From Capnocytophaga sp. oral taxon 878 (GTDB lineage: Bacteria; Bacteroidota; Bacteroidia; Flavobacteriales; Flavobacteriaceae): 64,000 bases of DNA. The stretch covers positions 1,570,001-1,634,000 of the forward strand of contig NZ_CP027229.1 of assembly GCF_002999135.1 (NCBI RefSeq), in the 5' to 3' direction. Of the stretch, positions 2,053-47,000 are shown one piece after another. The translations under genes and the position numbers were made by a program. The notes under the pieces were generated by a model. It made no database searches, was not told the origin of the DNA, and worked only from the letters and a program-made list of their open reading frames with translations. Position 1 is the stretch's first letter, and each line of letters starts with the position of its first letter.

Positions 2053-2487
2053 TTAGAAAGGCAAATCGTCCTCGTCTTCCTCTGCGACTTGCCCTGCTGT
2101 GACTTGGGGCTTTGGCAAAGGTCTTATGGCATTTGTGTTATTTGTCTCACTTGCAGAGGTATTAGGTGTTACTTCTGCTTTCTTGCTAAAGTGGAATTTG
2201 ATTTTGGAGGTGTGAAAGTTCAAGCCTGCTTGAGGCTCTCCCTCACGATTGAGCCACGCTCTTGCCGATACTCGTCCTTCCAATTCAACCAATGTGCCTT
2301 TGGTAAGGTACGGAGCAACTCCCGTACTGAGCCAATAAGAACAGTCAAAAAAGGAGGTCTGTTGTACGTTTTCACCTGCTTTGTTTCGGTAGTTGTCGTT
2401 CACTGCTACAGAGAAATTAACTACTTGTTTGCCATTTGATAGGGTTTGCACTTGTGCATTTTCGGTAAGTCTTCCTACGATATTCAT
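2053..2487 (-). CDS. ssb: Single-stranded DNA-binding protein
   Basis: A 144-residue SSB. Residues 1-105 form the OB-fold, beginning MNIVGRLTENAQV, with the conserved VNFSVAV strand and an FFDCSYW segment. A low-complexity linker follows, and the protein ends in an acidic tail DEDDLPF, the tip that recruits replication and repair partners in this family. Being inside the element, it is the element's own copy rather than the chromosomal ssb and probably coats transferred single-stranded DNA during conjugation. Start ATG at 2487, 25 bp after the upstream gene. Confidence 0.93.
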   Translation of the reverse strand: MNIVGRLTENAQVQTLSNGKQVVNFSVAVNDNYRNKAGENVQQTSFFDCSYWLSTGVAPYLTKGTLVELEGRVSARAWLNREGEPQAGLNFHTSKIKFHFSKKAEVTPNTSASETNNTNAIRPLPKPQVTAGQVAEEDEDDLPF

Positions 2488-2512
2488 AAACGTTCTATTT
2501 GTTATTAGGTTA

Positions 2513-2848
2513 CTAAATTTCTACTATTTGGTCTATGCGCCCATAAAGATAGGCACGGAGGCTGGTGCGGTCGATAGCATAGTATTCATACCAAGTATTA
2601 TACTGCTTTACAATGAACTTTTTCAGTATATCGGAAAAATCAAATCGGTAGCCCAATAAGGGGATAGCATTCCTAAAAAAGCAGTTACTATTGACCGCTT
2701 GAGTAATCCAATTTTTCTCTGTTCGGGTGAGTTTCTCACCGCTATTGAGTTTTACACGGAGCTGATAGACTTGGCAGTCTTTCAGATGTTCTAAGGGGCT
2801 TATTTCGTGAGACACGAATTTAGTTGCGATACAGGGTTCTTTTTTCAT
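2513..2848 (-). CDS. Unknown element protein (111 aa)
   Basis: A 111-residue protein, first gene of the leftward accessory operon. A basic middle part contains KLNSGEKLTRTEKNWITQAV, which resembles a helix-rich segment seen in element-borne proteins of Bacteroidota next to ssb, but I cannot name the family. The C terminus is rich in tyrosine and arginine. The long upstream gap (2849-3438) presumably holds its promoter. Confidence 0.65.
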   Translation of the reverse strand: MKKEPCIATKFVSHEISPLEHLKDCQVYQLRVKLNSGEKLTRTEKNWITQAVNSNCFFRNAIPLLGYRFDFSDILKKFIVKQYNTWYEYYAIDRTSLRAYLYGRIDQIVEI

Positions 2849-3089
2849 CTTGTTGCATTTTAGGAGTTTTATACGGCTTTACGGCTTGTTTGGACACGAT
2901 ACGCACGATTTTCGGCTTTTAGGTTGTCTTTTTGAAATTTTTTATTCGACAATGGGAGGAAAAGCGGTATTCGTTTCAAAAAACAATCTGTAAGAAGCGG
3001 CATTTTTCTCATATTTGACATTTTTTTTATTCGCTTAAAGGTCGGAATGAGCTGGTTTCGTTTCGAGTGCCATAAAAGGTCTGTGTTTA

Positions 3090-3187
3090 GCTTCTGCAAG
3101 GTTTTTCAAAAAAATACTACCCGCAGGACAACGGACAAGGGCTGGAGATTTTTTTGAAAACCCATCGGGCTTGACCTTGCAAGAAGC
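3090..3187. repeat. Interrupted inverted repeat between integrase and accessory operon
   Basis: Left arm 3090-3115 (GCTTCTGCAAGG, then TTTTTCAAAAAAAT) is matched in inverse order by 3148-3160 (ATTTTTTTGAAAA) and 3173-3187 (GACCTTGCAAGAAGC). A 12-base insertion (3161-3172) interrupts the right arm. The spacer between the arms, 3116-3147, is GC-richer than its surroundings. Such a structure in the leader of an element operon could be an attenuator, an oriT-like hairpin or a protein-binding site; the sequence alone does not decide. It overlaps the end of a doubtful 76-residue reading frame that I do not accept as a gene. Confidence 0.6.
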
Positions 3188-3203
3188 GTTAATAACACAG
3201 AAA

Positions 3204-3211
3204 TACCTTTG
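3204..3211 (+). promoter_or_regulatory. Orphan rightward -7 element TACCTTTG
   Basis: TACCTTTG fits the Bacteroidota -7 consensus TAnnTTTG exactly, with TTG triplets upstream at 3171 and 3177. No rightward gene follows: the next feature is the integrase on the other strand. The hairpin at 3370-3413 also has T-rich sequence downstream on this strand, so a roughly 200-nt noncoding or antisense RNA is possible. Confidence 0.4.
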
Positions 3212-3363
3212 CACTCGAACAACGAACCGCCATTACGTGCCTTAAGTGTTTAAAACAGGGAAAATAGGTAAGTCTTAATGACGTATTTCTATTTGTGACA
3301 AACGAATACCCTTTTCCTTATTTGTTGAAGTCTTTTTCTCTTCTAATGGCTTTCTGTAAGGCA

Positions 3364-3413
3364 ACAAAAAAATCCATCGACACATCTCTTTTTGAAATGT
3401 TATCAATGGATTT
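3364..3413 (-). terminator. Terminator of the integrase gene
   Basis: Read on the minus strand, AAATCCAT... (3413 down to 3399) pairs with ...GATGGATTT (3384 down to 3370), allowing G-U pairs, and is followed by seven T residues (plus-strand A-run 3366-3372). It lies 25 bp beyond the integrase stop codon. Confidence 0.8.
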
Positions 3414-3438
3414 CTAATTTTTAAAAGACACTGAGAAG

Positions 3439-4674
3439 TTATCCTATCTTTAAGTTTTTTAATCGTTCGGCAGCAATTTCCATATCCTTGCTAATTTTCT
3501 CATTGGTGATTTTAGCATAAATCTGGGTGGTTTTGATATTCTTATGTCCCATCATCTTGCTAACGCTTTCCAAGGGAACCCCTTCTGTTAAGAACAGAGT
3601 ACCAAAGGTATGGCGTGCCCAGTGAAATGAAATGGGTTTTTCACGAATGATGTTACAATCTTTCATCATCTTTTTGATCAGGAGGTTGCAATTAGCATTG
3701 GAGGGCGTAGGAAACAGTGCCTCTGTACGAGTCGTACCCTCATATTTTTCAATAATTTTCTCGGCTATATCCAATAGGCGTACATTACAGGGTACATCAG
3801 ATTTCTGACGGCGTTTGATAAGCCATTTGTTGCCGTCAAAGAACGATTGTAAGTGACTTTTTTTGAGCTGCTTGATGTCAATATACGAAAAACCTGTAAA
3901 GCAACTAAAAACAAATAGGTCTCGTACTAATTCAGCAGAAGCACTCTTAGGGTGATATTGCAGAAGAGCTTCTACTTCCTCTCTAAGCAAATAACCTCTG
4001 TCTTTCTCCTCCATAGAACTTATATAATTCTTAAAAGGATTGCGATAGATAATTCCTTTGTCTATCGCTATTTCTACCATTTTACAAAGGGGCATCATAT
4101 AAACCCATATTGTGTTGTGAGTAAGACTTTTATTAACTCTAAGATAGAAGTCGAACTCATTGATAAAGACTTCTGTAAGCTCTTTGAAAGAAATATCACT
4201 TCTGCGGTATTTGTACTGGATAAATTCGCTCAAATGAGTATATACATTCTCATATTTGTTGAGCGTACTATAACTTCTAACACCTTTTTCTACCATCAAA
4301 ACAAAGTCCTCTTTGAACTTCTCATAGACTTTTAGCAAGGAATCTTCCATTACTCCTATGCCTAGGAAAGCAGCTTTTAGCTTCTGAGCAGTAACCACTC
4401 CCTCGTACTTCATCAGTTCCTCATAATGAGTAACCATACGTGAGCGAATCTCTTCCAGCTTGCGATTAAGTTGGGTAGCTTCTTCTGTTTTACCTGTTAC
4501 CCTTCCGTACTTCAAATCCCATTTCTGCGGAAGGATTTCAAGTTTGGTACTAAACTGAGCTACCTGATTGTCAATGGTAATACGCCCCATAATAGCAACC
4601 TTACCGTTCTTCTTTGGGGCATTCTTTTTAAGGTAAAACAATACCTTAAAGGTTGAGCGTTTTACTTTTTTCAT
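3439..4674 (-). CDS. int: CTnDOT-type tyrosine site-specific integrase
   Basis: A 411-residue tyrosine recombinase that inserts and excises the element. It has an N-terminal arm-binding domain (about 1-105), a SAM-like core-binding domain (about 110-215) and a catalytic domain (about 228-411). Visible catalytic residues are Lys291, the box HWAR (His351, Arg354), His377 in GHKN and nucleophile Tyr386. The first catalytic arginine is absent: the motif reads TGFSYID with Ser263 in its place, as is known for IntDOT, whose length is also 411. It is transcribed from its own promoter (4694-4724) and ends at a terminator (3364-3413). It defines the end of the integrated element. Confidence 0.95.
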   Translation of the reverse strand: MKKVKRSTFKVLFYLKKNAPKKNGKVAIMGRITIDNQVAQFSTKLEILPQKWDLKYGRVTGKTEEATQLNRKLEEIRSRMVTHYEELMKYEGVVTAQKLKAAFLGIGVMEDSLLKVYEKFKEDFVLMVEKGVRSYSTLNKYENVYTHLSEFIQYKYRRSDISFKELTEVFINEFDFYLRVNKSLTHNTIWVYMMPLCKMVEIAIDKGIIYRNPFKNYISSMEEKDRGYLLREEVEALLQYHPKSASAELVRDLFVFSCFTGFSYIDIKQLKKSHLQSFFDGNKWLIKRRQKSDVPCNVRLLDIAEKIIEKYEGTTRTEALFPTPSNANCNLLIKKMMKDCNIIREKPISFHWARHTFGTLFLTEGVPLESVSKMMGHKNIKTTQIYAKITNEKISKDMEIAAERLKNLKIG

Positions 4675-23251: not shown

Positions 23252-23292
23252 TTTGTCGATTTGCTGATTTGCTGATTTGGCAATGTAGTAAT

Positions 23293-23330
23293 AAAAAAAC
23301 TGCCCTAAAATAATTTGGGGTAGTTTTTTT
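23293..23330 (+). terminator. Terminator of the sdh operon
   Basis: AAAAAACTGCCC (23294-23305) pairs with GGGTAGTTTTTT (23318-23329) with one mismatched pair, then more T. It lies about 45 bp after the sdhB stop. Confidence 0.85.
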
Positions 23331-23334
23331 GTTG

Positions 23335-23363: not shown

Positions 23364-23405
23364 ATGGAAACAACCGATAAAACTCTCTCGGATTTTAGAA
23401 CGTAA
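23364..23405 (+). pseudogene. 13-codon remnant or leader peptide (METTDKTLSDFRT)
   Basis: A promoter-proximal ATG with a reading frame that stops after 13 codons. The peptide looks like the N terminus of a normal soluble protein cut short, which would fit replacement of the original gene by the accessory insert that follows. It could equally be a regulatory leader peptide. No further homology-like stretch is seen up to 23579. Confidence 0.35.
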
Positions 23406-23579
23406 CAAGTCACAAAGATAACTGCTTTTATAAAGTTTAATTTTAAAAATAAAAAAATATCAGTAAGACTGACATAACCCATTTTTAAGACGTAATATTT
23501 AAAAATACTAAATCTATAAGCAACAAACATACTATCATAGAGTAAAGAATACTACTTTAAATACAAATAAAACAACAAA

Positions 23580-26500
23580 ATGATAATCATACTTAATATA
23601 TTTTTAGCTTTACTACTCTTACTACTCTTATGGAGTATCATACAAACAGCTTCGCTCATTCTTGTTATAAAAAAGGTGCGAAAAGCTAATTGGAAAGAAT
23701 GGATTAATATAATTATAGCATTTCTAAAGACAAGAACTGAACGTAAAGTTTTTTATAGATTTATGGCAGCAGAACTTATTCTTGCAGGAGGAGTAATACC
23801 GGAAATACCTAAAATTGTACTTAAGTTTAGACATGCTGATACAGAAGTAAACTTATGGCTTGAATTATCTCAAAACTCTGAATGGTTGAGTTTTGGGGTA
23901 GCAGTGCTAATTGCTTTTGGTTATTTTATCTATCTTTGGCTGTCTAATAAAAAGAAACCTGAAGAGTGGCAAAGAATAGTTGAGGCATGTAGTTTGATAG
24001 ATGAAGAATTTAACTTTATCCCTACACAGAAGTGGTTTGAGGATCAAAATGCCAAACAGATTAGAAATCTAGATAAGCGTTACTCAGAAGAAAGAAATTT
24101 TCCATTTGAGGATATGGATTTTGCGTTAGCTTCATTGCATATTGCTGATAGATTCAAGCCCTTGCTTAAAAAAGATATAAGCAAATTCAAAAATACACTT
24201 CGGACATTTATTGAAAGTATAGATAAAGAACCTTATTATTCTGACTTATCTACTCAGTGTAAATTCCTTGCTGAAAAGATAGATAGCTTAAGTGGAACAG
24301 CAACTTCTTATATTGAATTAAGAGAATCAGTAAATGGATTCCTCTCTATATTTAACAATTTCTACTACGATTCTCAAAATAACAATAGAAATGACATTCT
24401 AACAAAAGGGAATTTTATTCGTGAAGATGGATATATCTTACAGAAAGTGCTTTCCAATAGTTGGATTGGGTTCAGGAAGCATCATACAATTATAATTACA
24501 GGTGTTGCCGGTGCAGGAAAGTCTCATCTTATAGGTGACATGGTTACTCAACGTAAACGTGCTAATGAACCATCTATATTACTTTTAGGACAACATTTTA
24601 CATCGTCATCTGATCCGCTCTCCCAAATTCGAGAGTTGTTGGATGTAAAATGTAGAAAGGAAAGGTTACTTGGACAGCTTGACAATTATGGTAAACGAAT
24701 AGGGAAACCGGTAGTCATATTTATTGATGCTATTAACGAAGGAGCTGGTGATGACTTATGGAGCAAATTTCTGTTGAACCTTCTGCAAAGTATAGAGTCA
24801 TATGAGTATCTGCGGCTCGTTATAAGTTTTCGTATATCTGATCGCAAAAATTGGTTTTATGATATTGCTCATAATTTTGAATACGCAGTATATCAACATC
24901 ATGGATTTAAAGGACATGAGAGAGAAGCATGTGAGTACATGTTTTCGTCTTTTGGTATAGAGCAGCCAACTTGGCCTGTATATGGAGAAGAATTCTCAAA
25001 TCCTCTTTTCTTAATCAAATATTGTCGCAATCATGAAAGAAGTCAACGCCCACTGGTGTTTACAAATTTCTGGACAACTATTCTAGAATATTGTGATGAT
25101 ACCAATCATGAAATAGCGATAAGTTTTAAGTATAACGAAGCTCAAAATCTTGTAACTAAAGCACTACGTTCGGTAGCAGAGTTAATGGTTACAGCTCGTA
25201 GTCGTTATAATATTGAATATCAAGTTATAATGAAACGGTTGGCTCAGGATGCTCAATACACTAAGGCTCCTAATGAATTCTTTGAATTGCTGATAGATGA
25301 GGGATTATTAAGAACGGATATCCATAATGGTGTCACATATGTAAATTTTGGTTTTGAAAGGATAGGCGATTATTTTATCGCAGAACATCTGATTTCAAAT
25401 GCTCCAGCGAAGGAATGGTTCAAATATAATTTGGGAAATCTTTCTGAAGCTTTAGCAATTCTTGTTCCCTCAATTAAAGATAAAGAACTAATAGAACTAG
25501 TTGAGAAAAATGATAAGGAAAAAGCGCTTCAAGCATTTATTGATAGTGCAATGTGGAGAGATAGTTTCACTGTGAAAGGAGATGAATTGATATCTAAAAT
25601 AATAGAGGTAAAAGAATATGGTTTGATGTTTGAAATTATATTATCTTGCCCTTACAGAACAGATGTAGCTTCAAACGGATTTGCTTTGTATGATATGTTA
25701 TGGAATTTAAGTATGGTGCAACGAGACGCTATATGGACTATTTTAATTTCCTCTCCTTCTTCACATCAAAGTAGTCAACTTATGGATTTGGCACGATGGG
25801 GGTGCGAAGCTTCGGAAAATACTCTAAATTCGATAGATAATCAGATAGCTAAGGCATGTCTTGAGACTTTGGTATGGACACTATCCACTACTTGGCGAGA
25901 ACTGAGAGATTGTGCTACACATGCCATTGTAAATATTTTAGTTCAGCATAAAAAACTTCTTCTACCATTACTAGAGAAATACTATTTTGTTAATGATCCT
26001 TACATTCAAGAACGTTTGTGGTGTGCTGTCTATGGAGCGTTACTCCTAATGCAAGATGATAAAAATAGCTGTACAGTTGCACAGTGGGTATATAGTAACG
26101 TCTTCGTCAAGAAACATGTACCTGAACACATTTTGGTGCGTGACTATGCTTGTAATATTGTAGAGTTTGGTATTAGTAGAGGTTTGGATATAAGGATAGA
26201 ACAGGGACACATAAAAGTTCCCTTTACAGACGGGACCTTACCTCCCATTCCTTCAAACGATGAAATTACTGCAAAGTATGATAGAGATTGGAAAACAGTT
26301 CCAGAAAATGAACGAGATGTATATATGGTTCAGCACTCAATATTATCGTCTATGGCTCCAGAGTATGGAGTAAGAAGTTATGGAGATTTTGGAAGATATG
26401 TATTCCAATCTAATCTTGGTGGCTTTGGGGAGAATGTAGAGATGTTGTCGAATTGGGCCATACATATGATATTTGAAGAGTATGGATATGATCCTAATGT

Positions 26501-27635
26501 TTTTGTTCACTTCGATAAGAACAACGATAGCCATAATCGGTCTCATGGCAAAATTGAACGTATAGGAAAGAAATATCAGTGGATAGCCATGTATCGCATT
26601 ATGGCTCGGATGTTAGACAAATACCCTGATAAAGATTGGAGTAATGAATGGTCTGATCCTGTACGAAGAGCCAGAACTATTGACCCTACAATATATCCTG
26701 GGCGTAAGTCATTACATCATCAGAGCAAATATAAACTTCCTGATTTTGATATATCGGTACCGAAAAATGATCTCAAATGGTTGAAGACGTGGAAAAATAT
26801 GCCAAGAATTAGGGAGTATGTTCTTATTACTGATGAAGATGGAATTGAATGGGTAAATTTATTTTCATACAGCAAGTTTGTGCATGAACCAGATGACGAT
26901 AAAGCTCTTATAAGAGATTTATGGACTTTCATACAGGCATATGTTGTCAATAAGGAGGCCTTGAGTACTGTGTGTGACAACTTATACCATATAGGAATTG
27001 AAGGACGTTTCTTTCATGAGAATAACGAGATTTACAATGTATTTACTCGTGAATTTTATTGGTCGACAGCTTATAAGAATGCTGTAAGTATTGAGAACCA
27101 CAAAAGAATACCATTCTCTGTAGGACATAAGATTTTCGATGAAATTATCATGGAACCTGCTTATTTGCAGTACACCCTCTCATATGACGATGATGTGTCA
27201 TCCGATGATTTTGTCAATCTGCTTCTGCCTAATGAGTGGTTATTCAATGGGCTCCAATTGAAATTTTCTAATGATGTTGGAGTATGGGTGAATGATAAAA
27301 ATGAGATTGTTGTATTGGATAACTATATGTTCTCAAGTGGTCATAGTGCATTATTAGTTCGTAAGGACTATCTTCTCAATTATCTCAATGCTAATGGGAA
27401 GGTAATGTTTTGGCCTATATTAACAGAGAGAATGATTCGTTCAAAAAAGATGGGGTATGCTAATCGTACTCAGAATGGGGGATATGCTTATATGGATGAA
27501 AGAGGTATTATACATCAAAAAATTAGATGTTATGAGCCTTCAAATATAGAAAAGAAATATTTAAAGCTTAAAAGTCTTATTGACAAGAAAACTAATATTG
27601 TTCTATTTTGGCTGCACAAACACCATTTTATTTAG
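23580..27635 (+). CDS. Membrane-anchored STAND-like NTPase, candidate anti-phage defence protein
   Basis: A 1351-residue protein. A first hydrophobic helix (3-30) and a second (about 104-121) anchor the N terminus. Then come a helical linker, an NTPase core with Walker A GVAGAGKS (308-315), Walker B VVIFIDAINEG (378-388) and sensor-like VISFR, a winged-helix-like segment ending in ERIGDYFIAEHLI, and a roughly 700-residue helical C-terminal part containing ERIGKKYQW (993-1001). I recall similar segments in very large bacterial ATP-binding proteins of the Avs/STAND kind. By analogy the C-terminal part would sense an invader and the membrane segment would be the effector; this is inference. It is a lone AT-rich gene between core operons with no obvious partner. 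Confidence 0.75.
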   Translation: MIIILNIFLALLLLLLLWSIIQTASLILVIKKVRKANWKEWINIIIAFLKTRTERKVFYRFMAAELILAGGVIPEIPKIVLKFRHADTEVNLWLELSQNSEWLSFGVAVLIAFGYFIYLWLSNKKKPEEWQRIVEACSLIDEEFNFIPTQKWFEDQNAKQIRNLDKRYSEERNFPFEDMDFALASLHIADRFKPLLKKDISKFKNTLRTFIESIDKEPYYSDLSTQCKFLAEKIDSLSGTATSYIELRESVNGFLSIFNNFYYDSQNNNRNDILTKGNFIREDGYILQKVLSNSWIGFRKHHTIIITGVAGAGKSHLIGDMVTQRKRANEPSILLLGQHFTSSSDPLSQIRELLDVKCRKERLLGQLDNYGKRIGKPVVIFIDAINEGAGDDLWSKFLLNLLQSIESYEYLRLVISFRISDRKNWFYDIAHNFEYAVYQHHGFKGHEREACEYMFSSFGIEQPTWPVYGEEFSNPLFLIKYCRNHERSQRPLVFTNFWTTILEYCDDTNHEIAISFKYNEAQNLVTKALRSVAELMVTARSRYNIEYQVIMKRLAQDAQYTKAPNEFFELLIDEGLLRTDIHNGVTYVNFGFERIGDYFIAEHLISNAPAKEWFKYNLGNLSEALAILVPSIKDKELIELVEKNDKEKALQAFIDSAMWRDSFTVKGDELISKIIEVKEYGLMFEIILSCPYRTDVASNGFALYDMLWNLSMVQRDAIWTILISSPSSHQSSQLMDLARWGCEASENTLNSIDNQIAKACLETLVWTLSTTWRELRDCATHAIVNILVQHKKLLLPLLEKYYFVNDPYIQERLWCAVYGALLLMQDDKNSCTVAQWVYSNVFVKKHVPEHILVRDYACNIVEFGISRGLDIRIEQGHIKVPFTDGTLPPIPSNDEITAKYDRDWKTVPENERDVYMVQHSILSSMAPEYGVRSYGDFGRYVFQSNLGGFGENVEMLSNWAIHMIFEEYGYDPNVFVHFDKNNDSHNRSHGKIERIGKKYQWIAMYRIMARMLDKYPDKDWSNEWSDPVRRARTIDPTIYPGRKSLHHQSKYKLPDFDISVPKNDLKWLKTWKNMPRIREYVLITDEDGIEWVNLFSYSKFVHEPDDDKALIRDLWTFIQAYVVNKEALSTVCDNLYHIGIEGRFFHENNEIYNVFTREFYWSTAYKNAVSIENHKRIPFSVGHKIFDEIIMEPAYLQYTLSYDDDVSSDDFVNLLLPNEWLFNGLQLKFSNDVGVWVNDKNEIVVLDNYMFSSGHSALLVRKDYLLNYLNANGKVMFWPILTERMIRSKKMGYANRTQNGGYAYMDERGIIHQKIRCYEPSNIEKKYLKLKSLIDKKTNIVLFWLHKHHFI

Positions 27636-27769
27636 TCATCAAAAAAATAAGAAGGCGGAGTTATATTATAGCATAGGCTATATGCATTTAAGAAGTTCTA
27701 AAATATATGTCCTATCTATTATATGTCAAGACTTAGAATTGTCTATAAAGAGTTTAATTATTTGGGTCA

Positions 27770-27791
27770 AAAGAGTTTTTAGAAACTCTTT
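27770..27791. terminator. Hairpin downstream of the NTPase gene
   Basis: AAAGAGTTT (27770-27778) and AAACTCTTT (27783-27791) form a 9-bp perfect stem with a 4-base loop, 135 bp beyond the stop codon. There is no strong T-run, so termination is uncertain. The rest of 27636-27929 shows nothing else I can support. Confidence 0.4.
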
Positions 27792-27929
27792 GAGTAAATT
27801 ATTTATTGTTCTGAAATCAACGGTAGTATAACCCAAAAGTTACATAAAAACAGATGTTTTCATTTAAGACTTGGGCTATTTTAATGAAAGAATAAATATT
27901 AGAAAAATAGCCATAGAAGAGTATTTTTG

Positions 27930-28121
27930 TCATTGTACAAGGGTGGTAGGCAGAACAGCTCCTCCCTTATATTTTTTGAGAATATCAGTTATATCTAATT
28001 GATTAACAAGAACCATTTCTACTAATTTAGTAGAATGGTTATTATCTATCCTATCAAACATATTTTCGGAAGGGGTATTGAAAATTTTGCCTATTTCAGT
28101 TTTAAATGATACTTTTGTCAT
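27930..28121 (-). CDS. Small unknown protein (63 aa)
   Basis: A 63-residue soluble protein starting MTKVSFKTEIGKIFNTP and ending VLPTTLVQ. The longer frame back to 28199 is not used because a near-consensus promoter box (TATTTCTG on the minus strand, about 28149-28156) lies just before ATG 28121. It sits between the NTPase gene and DUF4254, on the opposite strand to the NTPase. I do not recognise a family. It may be part of the accessory insertion, for example a fragment of a larger gene or a small regulator. Confidence 0.5.
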   Translation of the reverse strand: MTKVSFKTEIGKIFNTPSENMFDRIDNNHSTKLVEMVLVNQLDITDILKKYKGGAVLPTTLVQ

Positions 28122-28168
28122 AGTGTTTTGGGAGCAACAGAAATACAAAAATTGTGATATAATGGATA

Positions 28169-28206
28169 AAAATGAGGCTATTCGAAAAAATAACCTCATT
28201 ATTTTT
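28169..28206. terminator. Bidirectional terminator below DUF4254
   Basis: TGAGGCTATT (28173-28182) pairs with AATAACCTCA (28189-28198) with one mismatch. T-runs flank it on both strands. It can end the DUF4254 transcript on the minus strand. Confidence 0.7.
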
Positions 28207-28269
28207 TTAACTTAACCAAAACCGTTCTAAAACTTTTTAAGCAGGCTCTTTTTTTACTTCAAAAATTGG

Positions 28270-43504: not shown

Positions 43505-44104
43505 ATGGAAAAGACAAGAGATTGTCAGCTGTTTATGACTCCTAATGACGAACATTTATTTTGTAAAACACTGAGAGAGTTTAATCCTAATATTTATTTT
43601 TTAGACACCACTCCTTCTTTTGAAGCAGATATAGATAAAAGACTTTTTGAGGATGTTTCTATACTTGATAGTAAGTTCTTCTCTATAGTTAACTTTGATT
43701 TAATAAATAAAGAAGAACTACAGAAAAACTATAAAATGTATGGTGATTATTATCATTTTGATTGTTTAGGAAGAGCTCAAATGCAATTTTTACGTTCTCA
43801 TCCGGATATTTATGAGAAAGGTTGCTTGCAACATGGTAGAATAGCCGATTCTTATCACACAGAAGATGAGGAAGAAAAGAAATGGAAAAATAAGGTTTAT
43901 AATATTCTTAGAAAACTAGGAGAAAAAGTGTATTGGTACTATTCTCTCCCTAATGGAGGAAAAGAAATAAATGAGAAACCTCAAAGCAATTTAGTAGCCC
44001 TTCCTGATGCAATTATGATGTATAATGGTACAAAAGAGAACTTTATGCTTAATAGTGCGGCTAAATATGTGCCTAAAGGAATTACTATCAATGATTTAAT
44101 ATAA
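43505..44104 (+). CDS. Unknown protein (199 aa), possible immunity protein
   Basis: A 199-residue soluble protein with acidic N-terminal half and basic middle. Stretches such as DCLGRAQMQFLRSHPDIYEKGCLQHGRIADSY stand out, but I recognise no family. Codon use is AT-rich like the rest of the 43.5-52.9 kb array. The position at the head of a run of SUKH genes suggests an immunity protein against an unseen toxin; that is inference from context only. Confidence 0.55.
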   Translation: MEKTRDCQLFMTPNDEHLFCKTLREFNPNIYFLDTTPSFEADIDKRLFEDVSILDSKFFSIVNFDLINKEELQKNYKMYGDYYHFDCLGRAQMQFLRSHPDIYEKGCLQHGRIADSYHTEDEEEKKWKNKVYNILRKLGEKVYWYYSLPNGGKEINEKPQSNLVALPDAIMMYNGTKENFMLNSAAKYVPKGITINDLI

Positions 44105-44122
44105 CTATAAAAATAAAGCTAA

Positions 44123-44376
44123 ATGGAAAAAGTAAATGATTTTACTATAAGAAAAGAATACCCAAGGGAGAAAGATTATATAGTTTGGGAATATGAAGAT
44201 AGCTTTAAAACAGTCTTCAAGAATTATGGATTAATACATGCAAATATATTTCCAGCTGGGAATTTCTTTTAGAAATGAAATCTTTGAAAAAATTGAGTCT
44301 TTTTAGCTGTGGAAAGATATATCCTAATGAAAAGATTCTTTCAACTCTGAAAGGAAGAGGGGTGAAAGTATTTTAG
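44123..44376 (+). pseudogene. Frameshifted small gene with leucine-rich tail
   Basis: From ATG 44123 the frame reads MEKVNDFTIRKEYPREKDY and on to a stop near 44270. Around 44243-44255 the likely original frame shifts, after which it continues SSWEFLLEMKSLKKLSLFSCG and ends at 44376 (GRGVKVF). The two halves join into one product of about 83 residues whose second part resembles a terminal leucine-rich segment. One indel would restore it, so decay is recent or a sequencing error is possible. Confidence 0.55.
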
Positions 44377-44406
44377 CTTTATTGCCTCAATTAATGCTAT
44401 ATAGAA

Positions 44407-44820
44407 ATGAAAAATATTATAAAGGACTTAGAAAAAGGAGGCTGGAATAGTAATAAAGGAGCAAATTTAAATAATATAGGTATAGCTCAGAAGCAATTAC
44501 ATATTGCATTTCCAGAAGATTATTTAGAGTTTTTAAAATGGAACAATGGTGGGGAGGGATATATAGGGGAAAACTATATTTCATTTTGGAAAGTAGAAGA
44601 TTTAGAAGTTTTGAATAGAGAATATCAAATTCAAACTTATTTATCAAAAGGATACTTAGGGATTGGTACTGATGGAGGGGGAATTTGTTATGGCTTTTGT
44701 TTGGGAAAAGGATTTGCTATTTTCAAATGTTCTTTGGGAGATTTAGATATCAAGGAAATAACTATTGTAGCTAATTCCATAAAAGATTTTTTTGGTAACG
44801 CCTTAGTTTCAGAATTATAG
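44407..44820 (+). CDS. SMI1/KNR4 (SUKH) family immunity-type protein
   Basis: A 137-residue SUKH-superfamily protein. Typical elements are IAFPEDYLEFLKWNNGGEGY (residues about 34-53, the family helix followed by NGG), ISFWKVEDLEVLNREY, and GYLGIGTDGGGICYGFC. SUKH proteins are common immunity proteins of bacterial polymorphic toxins, especially nuclease toxins. The gene is one of at least three SUKH-like genes in this array. Confidence 0.88.
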   Translation: MKNIIKDLEKGGWNSNKGANLNNIGIAQKQLHIAFPEDYLEFLKWNNGGEGYIGENYISFWKVEDLEVLNREYQIQTYLSKGYLGIGTDGGGICYGFCLGKGFAIFKCSLGDLDIKEITIVANSIKDFFGNALVSEL

Positions 44821-44848
44821 AAAAATAACCATAACAACAAGTAATAGA

Positions 44849-45397
44849 ATGACCCCTTTATATGCACAATGTATCCCCTATAACAAAAGTATTAAGGGAC
44901 GTATAGGAGGAAACCCTCCCATAAGTATAGAAACTGAAATCCCTGAAGGATATGCTTTCTATGCAACACTTGTTCATCCAGAGAAAGAAAATAAGATGTT
45001 ATCTATTTTGATTTCCAATGATTTTAATCAATTGATACATCATCAATCTTATCCAAACATTCTTATCAAAGTAGTTGAACATAGTTTTTCTTATGAAGGA
45101 GATAAATATAATCTTTCATTACCTCAGATAGGAAAAACTTCCTCAATTAGTGATTATAGTAGGAACAAACAAAAGTTTAATTTGGTACAAGTAGGAGGAA
45201 GACCTGACTTTATAGATGATGATCCTGTATATTATGAAGAATTATTAGCAGATGATTACAGTTTCTACTTATCAATAGATGAAGAAGGTTATGATGTACC
45301 ATCTATGAAAATGGTTATATTTTCTTATGGTGCAGTTTATCTTTACAAACATAATAAAACAGGCGAAATTATAGCTGGTTTTTGGCAATATACATAA
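44849..45397 (+). CDS. Unknown protein (182 aa), DUF1963-like
   Basis: A 182-residue soluble protein. The segment VQVGGRPDFIDDDPVYYEELLADDYSFYLSIDEEGY resembles the glycine-rich GGxPxW turn and following acidic strands of DUF1963/YwqG proteins, which are frequent in toxin-immunity loci. The beta-rich N-terminal half (GGNPPISIETEIPEGYAFYATL) would fit. The assignment is by eye and uncertain. It is 28 bp after the SUKH gene in the same orientation. Confidence 0.6.
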   Translation: MTPLYAQCIPYNKSIKGRIGGNPPISIETEIPEGYAFYATLVHPEKENKMLSILISNDFNQLIHHQSYPNILIKVVEHSFSYEGDKYNLSLPQIGKTSSISDYSRNKQKFNLVQVGGRPDFIDDDPVYYEELLADDYSFYLSIDEEGYDVPSMKMVIFSYGAVYLYKHNKTGEIIAGFWQYT

Positions 45398-45472
45398 ATG
45401 AAAGTTGGAAGATAACAAATTGATAATTAGTAGCAGAATTATAGAAAAAAATAACCTCAATAAATATAAGTA

Positions 45473-45910
45473 ATGACAAACAATTTTAAAAATAAGGTAG
45501 ATTCCTACCTTTCTTCAGAAGTAGGTAGACTTTTTATTCGGTATAAGAATGAAGCTAAAGATATTGATTGTACTGAGAAAGAATTGGGTATTACGATAGA
45601 TGATGCTCTCAAATATGTACTATTGACCTATGGAGGGGCTTATATAGGGGTAGATTTGTTACCTTGTTCTGAGGATCCTAATAATAAAAATCAAGAGACC
45701 ATTTTAGATTATACAAAATCTATAAGAGACTATTATAAAGAAATAAATGTTTGCCATAGTATTCAAAGGGGATATGTTATATCAATAGAAGGGAATGGGG
45801 ATATTATCTTTATAAATTCAGCAAATGAAGTAATAATATTCTACCACGATACTAATGAAGAAGAACTTTTAGCAAAGGACTTTGAATCTTTTATAATAGA
45901 GCTGATATAG
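45473..45910 (+). CDS. SUKH-like immunity-type protein
   Basis: A 145-residue protein with a SUKH-type layout: IDCTEKELGITIDDALKYVLLTYGGAYIG gives the helix and GG turn of the family, and later strands GYVISIEGNGDIIFINSANEVIIFYHD plus a terminal helix DFESFIIELI complete the fold. A role as an immunity protein is likely from family and context. No paralogous toxin is adjacent. Confidence 0.72.
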   Translation: MTNNFKNKVDSYLSSEVGRLFIRYKNEAKDIDCTEKELGITIDDALKYVLLTYGGAYIGVDLLPCSEDPNNKNQETILDYTKSIRDYYKEINVCHSIQRGYVISIEGNGDIIFINSANEVIIFYHDTNEEELLAKDFESFIIELI

Positions 45911-45942
45911 TAAAATATTGTATTTTAAGTTGTTAATTAAAA

Positions 45943-46392
45943 ATGATAACAAATAGATTAAAGAAACTACTTCTTGAGAACAATATGGTTATTGATTATA
46001 AAATTAGCCCCACAGAGTTTAATACTAAGAAAGACTTTATAATCAACTTGTACCAATCAAAGGGATATGAGCAAATCAATGACTCACTGATACTCTTTTT
46101 GGGATTTTTCCTAAATAAAAGTTTCTCAGCAAGAGGTAATCATATAGATTTTACCTTAGAAAAAGTATTGACAAACAATAATAAAGGTCATTATTCTTAT
46201 ATAGAGAGTTGTTTTGACTTAAAAAACTTAATCCCTTTTGCAAATGTATATGATAATTATTACACATTACTTATCAATGAAGATAATAGTGTCTATGCAG
46301 AAGGGTTTGAACTTCTCTTTTATGGAAGTGATCCGTTTGAAGCTTTGGAAAACTTGCTACAAGGTACTCCTTTAGAGACATTTAAATTATAA
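45943..46392 (+). CDS. SUKH-3-like immunity protein
   Basis: A 149-residue protein. The C-terminal pattern INEDNSVYAEGFELLFYGSDPFEALENLLQGT (a strand, VYxEGF, GxDPxEALExL) is the hallmark of SUKH-3 immunity domains, and the N terminus LYQSKGYEQINDSLILFLGFF fits as well. It is predicted to be a cytoplasmic partner of a YwqJ-deaminase-like or other polymorphic toxin; the toxin is not here. Confidence 0.75.
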   Translation: MITNRLKKLLLENNMVIDYKISPTEFNTKKDFIINLYQSKGYEQINDSLILFLGFFLNKSFSARGNHIDFTLEKVLTNNNKGHYSYIESCFDLKNLIPFANVYDNYYTLLINEDNSVYAEGFELLFYGSDPFEALENLLQGTPLETFKL

Positions 46393-46416
46393 TCTGTAAA
46401 TTTCATACAATAACTA

Positions 46417-46824
46417 ATGAAAAGAAATACAACAATTTTATCTGTATTTATCAGTCTTTTAGTCATAAGTTGTGATGACTCAAAAAGGGAATTTGAGGTA
46501 CTCCAGACCGAGAAGGTGAGTAACACTTATGAATATAACCCTGATGGCTTTATAAAAAACAATTACGGAAAGTTGATTATCAAAACGATTTCACATTATG
46601 ATAAGGAAGGAAAACTAAAAAAAGTTTTTTGGAATAGGGCGAATGGCTTTGTAGAATACACTCTATCAGAACTTAAAGAGGATGTAGCCTTATTCAATAG
46701 CTTGGGTGTTGACACTGTATATACTGATAAAAAATACAGAGATTATATAGTAGAGAAAAAGAATGATACTATTTTCTATTTGTTGGGTGATAAAGTTGTG
46801 ATGATGTACTATCCAATAAAATGA
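46417..46824 (+). CDS. Small unknown lipoprotein
   Basis: A 135-residue lipoprotein: signal peptide ILSVFISLLVISC with lipobox VISC (Cys19), followed by a beta-rich domain (YNPDGFIKNNYGKLIIKTISHYDKEGKL) resembling MORN-like or toxin-antidote lipoproteins. Within an immunity array, a periplasmic lipoprotein could neutralise a toxin acting in the periplasm or membrane. This is inference from position. Confidence 0.65.
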   Translation: MKRNTTILSVFISLLVISCDDSKREFEVLQTEKVSNTYEYNPDGFIKNNYGKLIIKTISHYDKEGKLKKVFWNRANGFVEYTLSELKEDVALFNSLGVDTVYTDKKYRDYIVEKKNDTIFYLLGDKVVMMYYPIK

Positions 46825-47000
46825 AAATAGTCTCTGTGGTGTTTTTTTAGCTTATATCTTCTTTTGCCTTGTAAACTGGCTAAATTGTCGGCTCTCAATA
46901 TTGACATAAAACACACAATAAAATGCCTAAATATCTGTGGTGATATAGAAATTGAAAAAAGAATTAACTCTTTAGAAAAAAAGAAAAAAATAAAATACCT
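46825..47000 (+). other. Spacer with possible leucine-rich coding remnant
   Basis: An open frame without start codon runs across the spacer into the next gene and would encode LPCKLAKLSALNIDIKH and KRINSLEKKKKIKYLCI. The pattern of leucines and isoleucines recalls the tail of the pseudogene at 44123. It may be another decayed immunity gene, or chance. Confidence 0.25.

Follow-up and report, generated by a model that had tools for sequence, protein, structure and literature searches.

The window analysed here, 64,000 nucleotides of the chromosome of Capnocytophaga sp. oral taxon 878 (NZ_CP027229.1, positions 1,570,001 to 1,634,000 of the forward strand; host genome of 2.99 Mb, completeness 99.97%), carries an open reading frame (ORF) of 1351 amino acids that starts with ATG, has no internal stop and lies between sdhCAB on one side and a DUF4254 gene on the other (whole-genome match G000:C1:1593580-1597632; Table 1). 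An initial annotation, made from the letters alone, had taken it for a single-gene defence system in which membrane helices stand in for the usual effector of a STAND-like NTPase. That idea was right in substance, membrane disruption and phage defence being what we infer. Judged from its sequence, the protein is an Avs2-type STAND core with another effector, rather than a canonical nuclease Avs2. The most surprising result is that, inside this membrane-type Avs2 gene, an internal block is nearly identical to a gene from another bacterial order.

An Avs2-type STAND core

The ORF is not a chance one, because it holds conserved motifs and has full-length homologues down to 38% identity; one relative (84% identity over 98% of the query) is recorded for Capnocytophaga sp. 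oral taxon 903. Walker A and FIDAINEG (residues 381-388) lie exactly where the initial annotation had placed them, and ERIGKKYQW was located as well. The gene is, as described there, a lone AT-rich gene between core operons; its GC content of 34.6% (27.3% at third codon positions) is lower than the 37.4% of the window and the 43-44% of sdhA and sdhB.

Searched with profiles of the STAND, NACHT and Avs families, the STAND-like NTPase proved to belong to the Avs2 group, on the combined word of PADLOC, NCBIfam, the solved Avs2 9o4e and structural comparison. Six Avs2 models of PADLOC match the core with 230.9-716.3 bits (PADLOC's own cut-offs are not printed beside these scores), the best of them over residues 149-1315, and the PADLOC search of the protein gave no other Avs type at E <= 1, which makes it an Avs2 in the sense of PADLOC. 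The Avs2 equivalog NF041813 of NCBIfam reached 647.7 bits against a cut-off of 1000, so that the protein stays outside that stricter family; 9o4e (1484 amino acids), which aligns to residues 138-903 and 966-1289, scores 1052.6 bits with a family profile. General NTPase models of Pfam remained below their cut-offs (AAA_22 26.5 of 27 bits, NACHT 12.5 of 26.7), and a generic NACHT identity is disfavoured, the Avs2 models being dominant. In keeping with the STAND NTPase superfamily, the protein has a P-loop NTPase of NACHT/NLR-like fold, preceded by a domain and followed by a large C-terminal region. The structure model of the core (pLDDT 88.2, pTM 0.84) has Avs3 with terminase, NLRC4, NOD2 and Avs4 among its top structural rows; despite its strong sequence match, 9o4e is absent from the Foldseek and VIA rows shown, its presence in that library being unchecked. 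The Avs2 matches start at residues 138-288, and because they leave the first 137 residues outside we file the protein as an Avs2-type core with another effector.

A membrane module in the effector position

The two N-terminal hydrophobic helices of the initial annotation were recovered as strong segments at residues 2-20 and 103-121 (hydropathy in 19-residue windows), but two should probably read three, because a third, weaker segment occurs near residues 55-77 in many homologues (121 proteins surveyed) and the AlphaFold2 (AF2) model of residues 1-300 (mean pLDDT 79.2) contains a long helix at 38-69, between helices at 2-33 and 100-123. A beta hairpin at residues 79-94 is of low confidence in this model. 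In relatives with at least 38% identity, strong hydrophobicity is mostly found around residues 1-25 and again around 98-118; the exceptions are mainly proteins with a late listed start, among them P0020, P0023, P0080 and P0086, which show no hydrophobic segment. The module probably holds three membrane helices, the second with a glutamate (E65) that is kept in 39 of the 43 rows of an alignment, together with G71 (41/43) and P74 (42/43). Conservation of an acidic residue at such a place within the membrane would be in keeping with a channel or with contact between helices. Among 29 modules, the net charge is positive in loop 1 of all 29, in the hairpin loop of 5 and in the stretch after the third helix of 14. 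By the positive-inside rule, loop 1 should therefore lie inside; given three helices, the N terminus should then be on the outer side of the membrane and the NTPase on the inner. The residues that follow the third helix are neutral and add no support to this topology.

Neither Pfam nor PADLOC gave a family above cut-off for the module, the structure search with the 300-residue N-terminal model returned no solved fold at E <= 0.001, and profile searches revealed no other effector domain anywhere in the protein. Pfam found no nuclease in the N terminus, the effector of a canonical Avs2, a negative that calls for caution since Pfam also failed to name a nuclease in any of the 9 N termini of relatives that were tested as presumed nucleases (P0090, L009, L011, L013, L014, L018, L019, L031, L036). 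Hydropathy, the AF2 model and the lack of a nuclease match agree with the earlier view that membrane helices take the place of the usual effector. Membership in DUF4231 (PF14015) was rejected, with 14.8 against a gathering score of 24.7; the match (residues 50-133, E 0.038; shared by 3 of the 29 modules, at best with E 0.0016) is weak and not a demonstrated relationship. Residues 1-140 as query retrieved 24 proteins, all of them already Avs2-type relatives, and the module alone 5 proteins of 96-165 amino acids that are pieces of the same module; both searches need shared exact words and could miss distant carriers.

Other N termini on related cores

The cores of 109 proteins and 32 loci, 141 in all, were placed in a tree after P0002, 11 proteins of at most 1250 amino acids and the loci L008, L016, L029 and L037 had been dropped. 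In it, the 81 proteins of membrane type make up a single clade (support 0.999); membrane is the default class, each of the 81 having at least one hydrophobic N-terminal segment (one in P0017, P0030 and P0072, which start late), and L010, whose N terminus resembles the presumed nuclease type, is not counted. The adjoining group consists of 12 proteins presumed to be of nuclease type, 11 of which are recorded under Bacillota. Class labels other than profile hits were assigned by eye, the nuclease ones from a sequence pattern of such nucleases, and are provisional. Among loci labelled protease, L017 matches Trypsin (21.6 bits, cut-off 20.6) and L022 has no Pfam match; the HNH-like N terminus of P0088 falls just below the HNH_2 cut-off (20.8 of 21 bits). 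Effectors seem to have been exchanged between Avs2-type genes, because a second membrane type, a type of no assigned identity beginning MEPVS and the HNH-like type are interspersed at short tree distances. Homology of our module to this second membrane type was rejected, at a probability of 7-12% in one profile comparison, global and local.

As a separate observation, P0094, P0099-P0101, P0103, P0106 and P0108-P0112 have closely related cores with either a two-segment membrane or an MEPVS-type N terminus. Gao et al. 2022 are said to have described many N-terminal domain types, among which membrane helices may figure.

The helices might also act as a mere anchor that places the sensor where phage DNA enters, with the harm done by another activity or a partner. 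A hydrophobic localisation segment at the N terminus of Pseudomonas Avs5 is needed for protection, and the protein gathers at membrane-associated sites (PMC12931631, in the part of the article available); moreover, our module has no recognised effector fold. Against an anchor speak the profile searches, which leave no second effector domain, and the neighbourhood, where no co-oriented ORF directly adjoins the gene in the window (type I restriction genes precede it in the relatives L002 and L004). The module also sits where relatives carry other N-terminal domains, trypsin-like in L017 and close to HNH_2 in P0088. Overall, we consider an anchor rather unlikely.

A mosaic C-terminal region

On comparison of sequences, the gene is a mosaic that arose by recent exchange of a block within its C-terminal region. 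Over gene nucleotides 2254-3740 it is almost the gene of Prevotella sp. HJM029 (L006), and 494 of 496 encoded residues are identical. Just before the block, gene nucleotides 2101-2253 contain 26 differing positions, gaps included, and outside the gene the identity to the L006 locus is 30-64% upstream and 44-46% downstream in bins of 200 bases. Concordant polymorphic sites follow one another in a run as long as 101, and none of 2000 permutations gave more than 33 (the test covered 15 pairs drawn from six genes, and several other pairs also exceed chance). In trees, residues 1-740 group with P0003 (0.974) and P0005 (1.0), residues 760-1245 first with L006 plus L005 (1.0) and next with Bacteroides L003 and P0013 (0.965), and residues 1255-1340 once more with P0003, for which no support value is given, so that the flanks of the block go with Capnocytophaga-like proteins. 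Prevotella, Porphyromonas and Bacteroides belong to a different order from Capnocytophaga, and from the placement of the block in the trees the transfer would have run from Bacteroidales to Capnocytophaga. An assembly artefact is disfavoured: the same mosaic pattern is seen in P0002, a protein with 8 residues unlike those of the window protein, and both Prevotella genes come from named strains. Several other apparent mosaics rest on metagenome entries, may be assembly chimeras and were not used as evidence.

This block falls within the part of the protein that is similar to the C-terminal region of Avs3. Compared with P0003, the window protein is nearly alike over membrane module and NTPase and strongly different in residues 900-1250. 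Among closely related alleles, residues 76-100 and 201-275 vary as much as the block or more; since this variability extends beyond the block, selection on the sensor is not demonstrated.

The ORF ends about 54 residues short of relatives such as L005 and L006 (window positions 27600-27700), and a remnant of the lost C-terminal tail is recognisable past the stop in another reading frame. This loss might be taken as a sign of a decaying former defence gene, non-functional in this strain, as might shorter relatives of about 950-980 and 804 amino acids, which may be broken alleles or fragments, and the broken reading frame of a 5.4 kb copy (L008, 8001-13410) in a metagenome-assembled genome of Prevotella. 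However, the 1351 codons are open and the Walker motifs intact, the exchanged block kept the reading frame, and the lost tail falls outside the Avs2 match, which ends at residue 1315. Eight protein entries, that of the window included, have exactly 1351 amino acids, and P0003 and P0009 share the same ending. Decay is thus improbable.

Distribution and site of insertion

Sporadic presence and a variable site bear out the pattern of a defence insertion that had been proposed. Within the genus the gene occurs in 1 of 20 genomes, its own, and sdhB in all 20. In the family it was found in 2 of 149 genomes, the second copy at 30% identity with a match from residue 139, and in the phylum in 6 of 395 (E <= 1e-60), the other five at 29-32% identity with matches from residue 150 or later; among these six, the membrane module is reached solely by the window's own match. 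The stretch downstream of sdhB was compared in 10 of 19 relatives, where the site is empty or otherwise filled. In 5 of the 10 a DUF4254 gene follows, directly or within 100 bases (L061, L067), after about 0.85 kb (L059) or 1.26 kb (L060), each with a 260-amino-acid ORF, or after 6.65 kb (L058); the other 5 show no similarity to the window's DUF4254 gene in the stretch compared. No convincing direct repeat, as a target-site duplication would leave, was found at the two edges of the insertion.

What follows sdhB varies between genomes, and two relatives at least have helicases there that are related to defence families: L058 (812-7177) a UvrD-like one that partially matches GajB (best E 1.3e-8), and L062 (1557-9901) one that matches DpdF (E 4.5e-95). 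ORFs of 402, 407 and 260 amino acids at the site in relatives have no PADLOC match. The region after sdhB is a candidate defence hotspot.

Relatives with 76-88% identity in the best segment come from Prevotella, Porphyromonas and Bacteroides, and several have a mobile context. At L002 (Porphyromonas), Pfam identifies the methylase and R subunit of a type I restriction system ahead of the gene and, beyond it, a relaxase together with a phage-type integrase; a relaxase is also present at L004, and at L005 (Prevotella disiens) two integrases precede the gene and VirE-like, Toprim and relaxase proteins follow. Relatives occur in 2 phage records (coverage 50-56%, identity at most 27.3%) and 53 plasmid records, all below 60% identity, the annotated avs2 genes among the 15 plasmid matches listed being 27-29% identical to the window protein. 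A scan of viral contigs gave no relative, which is a weak negative because its confirmation used residues 1-300 only.

A housekeeping membrane ATPase without a role in defence is scarcely credible. We found no point in its favour, and it was rejected on distribution and site; sporadic presence, the mobile elements around relatives and the Avs2 homology all speak against it. The initial annotation had let its reading hang on STAND similarity, which is present, and on the gene not being a housekeeping gene conserved at the same site, which it is not.

Table 1. Features of the gene and its insertion site, in window coordinates
Feature	Position	Strand	Basis
Avs2-type STAND gene with N-terminal membrane module, 1351 amino acids	23580..27635	+	ORF; PADLOC Avs2 716 bits; PDB 9o4e E 1.7e-96
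Membrane module, N-terminal, residues 1-137	23580..23990	+	hydropathy, 43-row alignment, AF2 model, charge pattern
Helical linker, residues 149-300, already inside the Avs2 match	24024..24479	+	match and model
Walker A GVAGAGKS, residues 308-315	24501..24524	+	
Walker B VVIFIDAINEG, residues 378-388	24711..24743	+	
Presumed sensor, residues 640-1316, similar to the C-terminal part of terminase-bound Avs3	25497..27527	+	
Recombinant block, residues 752-1247	25833..27319	+	5 mismatches in 1487 nt against the Prevotella sp. HJM029 gene (L006)
ERIGKKYQW motif, residues 993-1001	26556..26582	+	conserved in Avs2 relatives and 9o4e
Insertion between sdhB and the DUF4254 gene, approximate extent	23397..28242	.	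similarity ends at 23396 (L058), resumes at 28243 (L061)
Remnant gene start METTDKTLSDF, left edge of the insertion	23364..23396	+	402-amino-acid ORF at the site in G009 (L058)
Hairpin with T-run after sdhB, terminator-like	23290..23333	.	inverted repeat I2; sequence

An ORF of 89 amino acids (27930-28199, reverse strand) without a Pfam match also lies inside the inserted DNA. Elsewhere in the window, positions 44001-47000 are very AT-rich (27-30% GC) with few long ORFs, in contrast to the remaining window.

Proposed mode of action

We consider it likely that this single gene encodes a STAND sensor for abortive infection, which on detecting phage terminase would oligomerise and make the inner membrane permeable, the trigger and the pore being the predicted parts of this scheme. 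The protein would wait in the inner membrane until its sensor binds a protein that the phage makes in the infected cell, which from the modelled fold would most likely be the large terminase subunit. By analogy with other Avs proteins, ATP-dependent oligomerisation might follow, for which Walker A and B are intact. Oligomerisation might cluster the helices into a pore or otherwise break the membrane barrier, and the infected cell would halt before phage release.

The same architecture and effector might respond to a trigger other than terminase, such as portal or another phage protein. Avs4 recognises portal, and one Avs2 from Klebsiella also appears to bind Ksap1 (PMC12724215 and PMC12931631, in the parts of these articles available). 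Our clade is distant from annotated avs2 genes, and its C-terminal region is being exchanged. On the other hand, Avs2 sequence similarity extends through the C-terminal region, whose best structural row is Avs3 in the terminase complex (PDB 8dgc). A different trigger is possible but somewhat unlikely, and terminase remains the preferred one.

More tentatively, oral Bacteroidota might share a recombining pool of alleles across orders, in which intragenic homologous recombination swaps the phage-sensing halves and the receptor is retargeted; the module would be a type of pore-forming effector of which no relative has been described. As membrane effector and NTPase would be kept while the sensor is swapped, bacteria could retarget the receptor with the sensor of a distant species. 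The natural mosaic offers a ready-made domain swap, and the window protein and P0003 allow the residues that set phage specificity to be tested. Through a clade that conserves a membrane module, STAND immunity in bacteria would gain an outcome at the membrane. A membrane-effector Avs2 would in this resemble those NLR (nucleotide-binding leucine-rich repeat) pathways of animals and plants that end at the membrane.

Comparison with known systems

The characterised Avs1-4 are nucleases that kill by cutting DNA (PMC12931631, available part). In the available portions of the literature searched (including PMC10013915, PMC12724215, PMC12799240, PMC12904381 and PMC10907252), no membrane effector of Avs2 and no recombination in Avs sensors is mentioned. 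With Avs5, the SIR2-STAND type (9jap, 9nc9), the window protein shares a match in the NTPase, a STAND-based defence and the N-terminal hydrophobic segment described for PaAvs5 (PMC12931631, same part). It differs in that the SIR2 NADase effector belongs to Avs5 (as given there), and no Avs5 model matched the window protein. Avs3 (8dgc) has no sequence match with it and a longer chain.

The closest likeness is to AVAST type 2, Avs2 (PDLC02162/02164, NF041813, 9o4e), with which the protein shares the STAND NTPase and the C-terminal region over residues ~140-1315, including ERIGKKYQW. Unlike characterised Avs2, it carries a membrane module, stays below the NF041813 cut-off and has only 27-29% identity to plasmid avs2. 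The second membrane type (P0093, P0094, P0099-P0101, P0103, P0106; P0121 is possibly another) likewise combines helices in the effector position with an Avs2-type core, but has one or two hydrophobic segments there. Thus, the Avs2 STAND core is known, and what is new here is the membrane-module form of this known Avs2-type sensor.

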